A program made the translations under genes and the position numbers. From the IMG/VR virus record IMGVR_UViG_3300009182_000171, positions 1-36,390 of that record: DNA of 36,390 nucleotides; one strand, given 5' to 3'. Origin of the DNA: a virus. The notes beneath the pieces are model-generated. The model was not told where the DNA came from, made no database searches, and was given only the letters and a program-made list of their open reading frames with translations. This document shows, piece after piece, positions 11,369 to 12,787 of this stretch (positions within the stretch are counted from its first letter, which is position 1; every line of letters begins with the position of its first letter).

Positions 11369-12154
11369 TCAAAAAAGGCCAGCAGGCTCAGCGGTCACAT
11401 CCCAATTGCAAATAATTAGTTCCATGCGCTCGACACCTTTGCCACCACCCACGGTGTATTTGATGGGCACCTCTTCAATGTGAAACTTCTCAAAACAGGT
11501 GCGGATCTGTGGGTGGTCATTGATGCTCAAAATGGCCTTGCCTTTAATTTCGCGCATGGTCTTGGCCATGGTTTCATACTCCTCCCACGGGAATGGCACG
11601 CCATAGCCCTCGGTCTCCCAATAGGGCGGGTCAAGGTAAAACAGCGTGTGCGGCCGGTCGTACCGGCGCATGCACTCCTTCCAATCCAGCCGCTCAATGT
11701 ACGCGCTGGCCAGGCGCAAATGCGCCGCGCTCAAAGACTCTTCAATGCGCAGCAAATTGACCGCCGGGGCCGTGGTGGCCGTGCCCCAGCTTTGACCCTG
11801 CACGCGGCCACCAAAGGCCTGATGCTGCAGGTAGTAAAAACGTGCAGCGCGCTGAATGTCGGTCAGGGTTTCGCTGGGCGTCATCTGCGTCCACTTGAAA
11901 ATCTCTCGGCTGCTCAGCGCCCACTTGAACTGACGCACAAACTCCTCCAAGTGGTTTTGCACTACGCGGTAGAGGTTGATCACATCGCCATTAACGTCGT
12001 TGATCACCTCCACTTCGGCGGGCTGCCTTAAAAAATACAGCGCCGCCCCACCCGCAAACACTTCGACATAGCAAGTGTGAGCGGGGAACCGGTCCAAGAT
12101 GGTGTCAGCCAGACGTCGTTTTCCGCCAAGCCAGGGAATGATGGGATTTGCCAT
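11369..12154 (-). CDS. D12-class DNA N6-adenine methyltransferase (Dam-like)
   Basis: From MANPIIPWLGGKRRL the 261-aa protein shows the D12-class order: PWLGGK (7-12), SAM-binding EVFAGGAAL (31-39), NDVNGDVIN (52-60) and catalytic DPPY (175-178). Such enzymes methylate adenine, often in GATC, though the target cannot be read from the sequence. No restriction enzyme is adjacent, so it is a solitary methylase, probably protecting phage DNA or tuning regulation. The ATG at 12154 is preferred because homology begins there; a GTG at 12223 would extend into the stem-loop region. It is the last gene before the late terminator. Confidence 0.88.
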   Translation of the reverse strand: MANPIIPWLGGKRRLADTILDRFPAHTCYVEVFAGGAALYFLRQPAEVEVINDVNGDVINLYRVVQNHLEEFVRQFKWALSSREIFKWTQMTPSETLTDIQRAARFYYLQHQAFGGRVQGQSWGTATTAPAVNLLRIEESLSAAHLRLASAYIERLDWKECMRRYDRPHTLFYLDPPYWETEGYGVPFPWEEYETMAKTMREIKGKAILSINDHPQIRTCFEKFHIEEVPIKYTVGGGKGVERMELIICNWDVTAEPAGLF

Positions 12155-12181
12155 GTGAGAGTCCAGGTAGATTGATACACT

Positions 12182-12307
12182 AGGCCCGCCTCCCGGGAGG
12201 TGGCAGGGCCTTGGCTGGCTCACGGCATGAACGTGAAATAGCGGCTGGTCAGTGGTGCTAGTAACACCGCTGGCCGGTCGCTCTGTCTTTACACCAGGTG
12301 TAAAGAC
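12182..12307 (+). ncRNA. Candidate structured RNA: four consecutive stem-loops
   Basis: In the gene-free stretch between Rz and the methylase, four stem-loops follow each other almost without spacers: AGGCCC/GGGCCT enclosing CCTCCCGGGAGG (12182-12211); TCACG/CGTGA with a 7-base loop (12220-12236); an uninterrupted 18-pair stem with loop CTAGTAA (12240-12282); and GTCTTTACACC/GGTGTAAAGAC around one base (12285-12307). The 18-pair stem uses four G-U wobbles in the plus sense; on the minus strand these become A-C mismatches, so the RNA is predicted from the plus strand, opposite to the flanking genes. No clear promoter or U-tract is seen. A C4-type antisense RNA is one family to test. Confidence 0.5.
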
Positions 12308-12316
12308 GGGATAGGG

Positions 12317-12787
12317 TCAGTCAGGCACAGCGCCCGGCTTGGCAATGCGCCACAGCATCAGTGCGTCGGCGGCGTGGCCATCGGCGGCCGCAGCAATGGC
12401 TGCGCCCTGCTCTCCAAGCGTTGCAAGGTCTCGCGCCATTGCAGCGAGTAACTGGTTTTGGGCTGCGCTGTCAGCGGTGCAGGTCTCACCACCGGTGGCA
12501 GCGGCTCGGACGGCTTGGAGGTCGTTGCGCAGGCGGTCAAGCTCGCTAGACACAGCCAGGCGGTCAGTTGTGATGCGGGTTTGAGTTTGAGTGCGGGCAT
12601 GGATCACCTCGATTGTGTTGTTGGCTTGCTGGATGGCGGCCACGGCACCTTGGTGCACGGCCTCGGTTTGCGCGGCTTGTACCGCGTCACGCTCATGGCG
12701 CGCGCCCAATGTGTAGGCACGCCAGTGGGTGCCCAGCAGGGTCAGCAGGCCCACCAGGGCCAGGGTGAGGCGGATGGACAAGCTCAT
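12317..12787 (-). CDS. Rz-like inner-membrane spanin
   Basis: The 156-aa protein has an N-terminal signal anchor (residues 5-20, IRLTLALVGLLTLLGT) and a long periplasmic helical region rich in Ala, Gln and Arg (about 35-140) expected to form a coiled coil, the architecture of Rz i-spanins. It begins in an ATGA overlap with the amidase stop and fully contains an Rz1-like lipoprotein gene in another frame. With that partner it would span the periplasm and disrupt the outer membrane at lysis. Confidence 0.8.
   Translation of the reverse strand: MSLSIRLTLALVGLLTLLGTHWRAYTLGARHERDAVQAAQTEAVHQGAVAAIQQANNTIEVIHARTQTQTRITTDRLAVSSELDRLRNDLQAVRAAATGGETCTADSAAQNQLLAAMARDLATLGEQGAAIAAAADGHAADALMLWRIAKPGAVPD
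12358..12600 (-). CDS. Rz1-like outer-membrane lipoprotein spanin, nested in Rz
   Basis: The 80-aa ORF lies entirely inside Rz in a different frame. It has a signal peptide ending in the lipobox LTAC (Cys24), a Pro-rich mature part (SEPLPPVVRPAPLTAQP) and a polar C-terminus, exactly the Rz1 plan. A GAGGTG ribosome site precedes its ATG by about five bases. The pairing with the enclosing gene makes the assignment strong despite the overlap. Confidence 0.85.
   Translation of the reverse strand: MPALKLKPASQLTAWLCLASLTACATTSKPSEPLPPVVRPAPLTAQPKTSYSLQWRETLQRLESRAQPLLRPPMATPPTH

Follow-up and report, generated by a model that had tools for sequence, protein, structure and literature searches.

Methylases and Mom-type enzymes are used by phages to protect their DNA. 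How these often harmful modification genes stay silent until they are required has, to our knowledge, been worked out chiefly in Mu. The com-mom system of Mu associates com with a modification gene, the start site of which lies in an inhibitory mRNA structure (PMC6483171). Three described RNAs are also relevant here: ctRNA_pGA1 (RF00236), an antisense RNA of plasmid replication genes; C4 (RF01695), a phage antisense RNA with stem-loops (PMC12197685); and VpdS of vibriophage VP882, a trans-acting RNA of ~50 nt (PMC12197685).

The locus compared here with these systems lies in a viral DNA of 36,390 nucleotides (IMG/VR record IMGVR_UViG_3300009182_000171), referred to as the window, which is the whole stretch analysed. 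Comparison with homologous loci indicates that one folded stretch of it encodes, on the + strand, a genuine small RNA of about 103 nt that has not been catalogued before. This RNA family is new, its genomic association is both strong and unexpected, and a role in control is plausible.

The search against Rfam that had been proposed in a first-pass annotation of this DNA, C4 model included, returned no family that scored above its cut-off, whether in the window or in the 20 homologous loci examined. Permissive scans gave weak and scattered matches, apart from a full-length resemblance of the KS9 copy to ctRNA_pGA1 (44.5 bits, for a cut-off of 45 bits that was reached by no copy scanned). This resemblance is not shared by the other copies, which scored far lower against ctRNA_pGA1 or gave no match; twelve other phage loci, like the window, had no Rfam match at E <= 0.01. 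In the KS9 copy, the heptaloop hairpin, the joint, the long hairpin and the U tail align to the ctRNA_pGA1 model, and both RNAs lie opposite a gene leader and carry a variable recognition loop. Unlike ctRNA_pGA1, the phage RNA has an additional palindromic hairpin and a closing helix, and its partner is not rep. Membership was rejected because the score is below the cut-off and because the RNA lies opposite the leader of a DNA-modification gene, not of a replication initiator; by analogy, the phage RNA appears to work like ctRNA_pGA1 but is not filed there.

Nor did C4 appear when the window, KS9, L034 and the 12 other phage loci were scanned permissively, and its antirepressor neighbour is missing, the neighbours being a D12 methylase and lysis genes. 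Of the suggested C4-like antisense regulator, the antisense part is thus kept, as the best-supported class, and the C4 part is abandoned. As in Mu, several cassettes include Com, and one of them (JD024) has the RNA with Com and Mom. Mu differs in having no such RNA; here the inhibitory strand is predicted to be complementary to an antisense RNA, and Com is missing from many of the cassettes with the RNA. VpdS is a phage small RNA in a phage that also carries the RNA described here. No description of an RNA at modification genes was found in the open literature searched (subscription literature being outside the scope of the search). A 2010 survey of 104 RNA motifs includes C4, and its consulted passages and table contain no motif at a DNA-modification gene (PMC2864571). 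A strand-specific RNA-seq study of a B3-type phage, a possible carrier of the cassette, does not mention the RNA (PMC9936078).

Fold, covariation and limits of the RNA

Folded as RNA, the + strand of 12170-12320 reached -79 kcal/mol (z -6.4, with 0 of 200 shuffles as good), while the - strand gave a weaker fold (-57.9 kcal/mol, z -3.4). The letters of the 126-bp stretch 12182-12307 are as first reported, and its folding on the + strand is far better than chance. The reported 18-pair stem (12240-12257 with 12265-12282, loop of 7, also recovered by a scan for terminator-like structures) is unbroken and contains exactly four G-U pairs on the + strand, which are A-C on the - strand; the TCACG/CGTGA stem is present at 12220-12224 with 12232-12236.

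Homologues were searched by comparing the neighbouring D12 methylase with IMG/VR and retaining the best 80 of hundreds of loci, in almost all of which a similar block, encoded on the other strand, immediately precedes the methylase. Two named phages, KS9 and BgVeeders33, were found by DNA alone. Homologues with strong covariation were obtained from well over 150 phage loci. In an alignment of 54 copies, 87.8% of cells were paired, against 37-52% when partners were slid, and double changes occurred in 30 of 37 pairs; covariation among homologues had been set beforehand as the test of the RNA. With 150 copies, the top covarying column pairs were nearly all pairs of the proposed structure, and weighted cells at paired positions were G-U in 357 cases and A-C in 47 (about 8:1). 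This excess places selection on the + strand RNA, in agreement with the first-pass annotation.

In weighted homologues, the motif TAnnnT is found at -8 to -6 before the start of the RNA model in 91% of cases (control offsets, 3-10%), and is extended by G at -8 in 73% and by T at -9 in 48%. No conserved -35 was found upstream of the RNA in homologues, and a simple scan returned no sigma-70 promoter with a -35 box; the conserved promoter is instead an extended -10. From its location, the start of the RNA is predicted at G12188 (model position 7, a purine in 94%). As the terminator-like end lies near 12290, with a U run that is longer in most relatives than the TCTTT of the window, a length of about 103 nt is predicted. 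The fold of 12187-12290 is -55.6 kcal/mol (z -4.3), and the covariance model matches the window at 12182-12290 with 79.6 bits. Judged by comparison of homologues, the RNA has its own promoter and terminator opposite the target strand, as is the criterion for a cis-encoded antisense RNA. The positions between the -10 box and the start (12183-12187) are C-rich and conserved, which may be compared with stringently controlled stable-RNA promoters. The features of the locus are listed in the table.

Table. Positions, strands and supporting evidence of the features at the RNA locus in the window
Feature	Positions	Strand	Evidence or remark
Partner gene: D12-class DNA adenine methylase of 261 aa	11369..12154	-	PF02086 E 8e-24; PHROG 56 E 3e-93
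Methylase mRNA start region (ATG 12154-12152)	12150..12166	-	Predicted pairing with the antisense of hairpin 2
Extended -10 promoter TGaTACACT	12173..12181	+	TAnnnT conserved in homologues
Predicted small RNA, ~103 nt	12188..12290	+	Covariance model, covariation, fold
Hairpin 1, CCTCCCGGGAGG, gapless 12-bp palindrome with palindromic tetraloop CCGG	12189..12200	+	Palindrome in homologues, covariation
P2 5' strand CAGGG, pairs with 12281-12285 and closes the three-way junction	12204..12208	+	4/5 pairs double-changed
Conserved unpaired junction CCTTGG	12209..12214	+	Column conservation
Hairpin 2: CTGGCTCACG, loop GCATGAA, CGTGAAATAG	12215..12241	+	Covariation
Leader segment, predicted translation-inhibiting strand	12215..12228	-	Predicted to pair with the start of the methylase mRNA
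Hairpin 3, inner part of the 18-pair stem 12240-12282, loop 12258-12264	12243..12280	+	Covariation
Terminator-like end: CTCTG (3' strand of P2), then U run TCTTT	12281..12290	+	Covariation, homologue comparison, terminator-like scan
23-bp perfect palindrome GTCTTTACACC-A-GGTGTAAAGAC	12285..12307		Overlaps the 3' end of the RNA

The fold suggested by the comparison is a 5' hairpin, which is an uninterrupted palindrome, followed by a three-way junction in which P2 closes hairpins 2 and 3; it replaces the four adjacent stems that had been read as one RNA. In the GC-rich first stem of that earlier scheme, the outer half GGCCC (12183-12187) falls in the promoter region, probably between promoter and start point, and CAGGG covaries in relatives with CTCTG (12281-12285), from which the present arrangement follows.

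In 93% of weighted homologues, hairpin 1 comprises a palindrome of 8 nt or longer without a gap; its sequence takes many different forms, and even the letters of the tetraloop covary (positions 12 and 15, in the loop). A single hairpin does not suffice to account for this, whereas the pairing of two RNA molecules, or palindrome repair in DNA replication, could. The binding motif of Com was considered as an explanation of this hairpin and rejected, the motif not being constant. In the CCTTGG junction, five of the six model columns (28-32) are 80-92% conserved and the sixth 72%.

The heptaloop of hairpin 2 is hypervariable in a clade of 32 copies (entropy of 1.35-1.88 bits), with arms and flanking columns at or near 0. 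Plasmid antisense RNAs likewise have a variable loop on invariant arms. Pairing of this loop within the RNA was rejected because its columns covary with no others, and no fixed site complementary to it was found in the flanks. In hairpin 3, an apical TG...CA is conserved and 13 of 15 pairs are changed on both sides (helix 5).

The 11-bp dyad of the earlier description exists (12285-12295 with 12297-12307) but is outside the conserved RNA and confined to the nearest relatives. The 23-bp palindrome that it forms occurs once in the window and is shared with loci L005 and L008, and imperfectly with L007; owing to this narrow distribution and to its uniqueness in the window, it was rejected as a part of the RNA and is possibly an operator.

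Association with phage DNA-modification cassettes

In the window, the D12 methylase gene and the lysis genes that flank the RNA are on the - strand on both sides, so that the RNA is indeed, as first noted, antisense to late genes on either flank; no com gene lies between RNA and methylase. The lysis gene at 12317-12787 is called Rz from its position and its synteny with phage KS9, and matched no model in Pfam, PHROGs or NCBIfam.

The RNA was present in 77 of 80 D12 methylase loci (the best 80 of hundreds), in addition to KS9 and BgVeeders33, and in 74 of 80 loci with Com (PF10122), 25-40 nt before Com. A scan of viral contigs using the RNA pattern only returned 55 loci, of which 53 passed the covariance model; among the pattern-found loci with enough sequence, nearly all had a divergent methylase or Com cassette. 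The divergent partner is almost always a D12 methylase, Com with a methylase, Com with Mom, or Com with an ATPase and a formyltransferase. The last type is derived from loci L231, L235, L255 and L257, in which the RNA precedes an ATPase-like protein (SYRAxRVKSLFNV signature) with no divergent methylase. A Com-like zinc finger stands before the ATPase in three of the four, and a formyltransferase-like protein was found in the two with contigs reaching far enough. This cassette is a possible, uncharacterised phage DNA-modification system.

Fifteen named phages were scanned, 13 of which (B3, JD024, KS5, TJ1, Aval, VP882, PhiKM, AM106, phiHAP-1, S1, Meadow, KS9 and BgVeeders33) carry the RNA once, in the orientation of the model and beside a modification gene, and two of which (Mu and Smp131) have no such RNA. 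In the well-studied phages B3, KS9 and VP882, it accounts for a formerly unannotated gap and offers a testable prediction in each. A 261-bp piece of PhiKM, comprising the RNA and the methylase start, matches 552 of 5,426 complete E. coli genomes, for example in a Mu-like prophage (L367, NZ_CP023844.1, ~1029067-1029327). Carriers are lambda-like, Mu-like and P2-like phages as well as E. coli prophages, and this range indicates that the cassette moves as a unit. A conserved RNA travelling with modification cassettes across phage types would be a general control device.

Predicted opposite-strand leader and candidate modes of action

Neither the tie of the RNA to DNA-modification genes nor the leader on the opposite strand had been noticed in the first-pass annotation. 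Hairpin 2 is similar, in its 5' half, to the region in which the divergent gene starts: in the window the corresponding segments are CUCACaUGGCA and CUCACGGCA, in KS9 they are GGCUUUCACaaUGGCA and GGCUgaUUCACUGGCA, and Pseudomonas phages have GGCUUGCA. The longest stretch shared by hairpin 2 with its own start region was 5.57, against 4.42 for permuted regions (sd 0.105), while for hairpins 1 and 3 own start regions were no better than permuted ones. With RNA and gene arranged head to head, the likeness amounts to an inverted repeat, and a read-through leader would pair with the start site.

The predicted duplex of leader and start region was -12.9 kcal/mol for own regions and -9.9 kcal/mol for permuted ones (z -12.8), and the start codon was buried in the folds of the whole leader in most of seven examples. 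Eleven further named phages, not used to form the idea, gave -13.2 against -9.6 (sd 0.90); pairing of the leader is weak in B3 and AM106 (-8.4 and -7.5). In PhiKM, all nine pairs are kept by means of two G-U pairs that are possible only on the mRNA strand. Over all mismatches between start region and hairpin 2, G-U pairs of the mRNA strand numbered 9 and those of the opposite type 19, so that overall the mRNA strand is not favoured. By prediction and permutation, the start site of the modification cassette would lie in an inhibitory mRNA structure, which is the criterion drawn from Mu.

The RNA probably helps to control when the DNA-modification gene switches on. Our preferred reading, to which an even chance is given, is that it is a cis-encoded antisense small RNA belonging to a movable phage DNA-modification cassette (in order: the RNA, often com, then methylase, mom or another modification gene) and acting on a translation-inhibiting leader. 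Upstream phage transcription would read through on the - strand, producing a leader complementary to the RNA, and this leader would fold over the ribosome-binding site and start of com or the methylase. The RNA would pair with the leader, as any oppositely encoded RNA can, and duplex pairing, or cutting by RNase III, would make the start site accessible and so determine how much modification enzyme is produced. Release from inhibition is the more straightforward prediction, since the RNA covers the sequestering strand and starts about 34 nt short of the start codon; the RNA may, on the contrary, repress, either directly through the duplex or by way of RNase III or interference with transcription. 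The hypervariable heptaloop may serve as a recognition loop that prevents cross-action between the RNAs of different phages.

Antisense action on its own leaves three features unaccounted for, namely the palindrome of the 5' hairpin, the conserved CCTTGG junction and the conserved loop of hairpin 3. A broader and more tentative version, which we consider doubtful, describes a widespread new antisense family that sets modification through the leader, dimerises through the self-complementary 5' hairpin and has its heptaloop diversified, which would insulate the modification genes of co-resident phages from one another's RNAs; such diversification may be compared with that of plasmid copy-control RNAs, which act on replication.

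The conserved unpaired junction, together with a promoter and a terminator-like end proper to the RNA, would also suit a phage small RNA that acts in trans on mRNAs of the host or of a phage, CCTTGG or the loops serving as seeds and the RNA being a passenger of the cassette. Phage Hfq-binding RNAs of this sort exist (VpdS and PreS; PMC12197685). We regard this as unlikely: strict head-to-head linkage to DNA-modification genes in unrelated phages points to a local target, as do the matches to the start region, and the loop has no fixed complementary site in the flanks.

Direct repression in trans, by the 3' arm of hairpin 2 on the ribosome-binding site of Com or the methylase (which resembles the displaced 5' arm), appears quite improbable. 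On the core, the likeness of the start region to the 5' arm (z -9.0) exceeds its pairing with the 3' arm (z 4.2), differences that keep 3' arm pairing are 18 of 72, with no bias, and four pairs at most are possible in the window. These results stand against a duplex of 3' arm and start region that is stronger for own than for permuted regions (-9.5 against -8.3, z -6.4), with 8 to 9 contiguous pairs seen by eye in some loci (e.g. L017, L019 and L022).

Com is an RNA-binding translational activator (PMC6483171), and the junction and loop might recruit such a phage or host protein to act on expression of the modification gene. The frequency of the RNA at Com loci and the conservation of unpaired positions are consistent with this role, which is nevertheless judged very unlikely, as many phages, including the window and KS9, have the RNA and a methylase without intervening com, and the Com motif CC(N)2-3GAG is not constant in the RNA. 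That the element is only a bidirectional terminator or mRNA-stability element between operons, without an RNA of its own, is least credible: the 18-pair stem is terminator-like on the + strand, but hairpins 1 and 2 and the closing helix covary, the promoter is conserved, the U run is on the + strand only and the G-U bias is strand-specific.

Two minor observations concern individual loci. In phage B3, two small genes annotated as hypothetical, ORF45 and ORF46 (L340, 2234-2459), are encoded opposite the RNA, adjoining it or within it, and may be spurious. A 16-bp palindrome, GTGCAGACGTCTGCAC, is present unchanged in seven loci (L015, L040, L062, L069, L076, L081 and L083), in three of which it is located shortly after the RNA.
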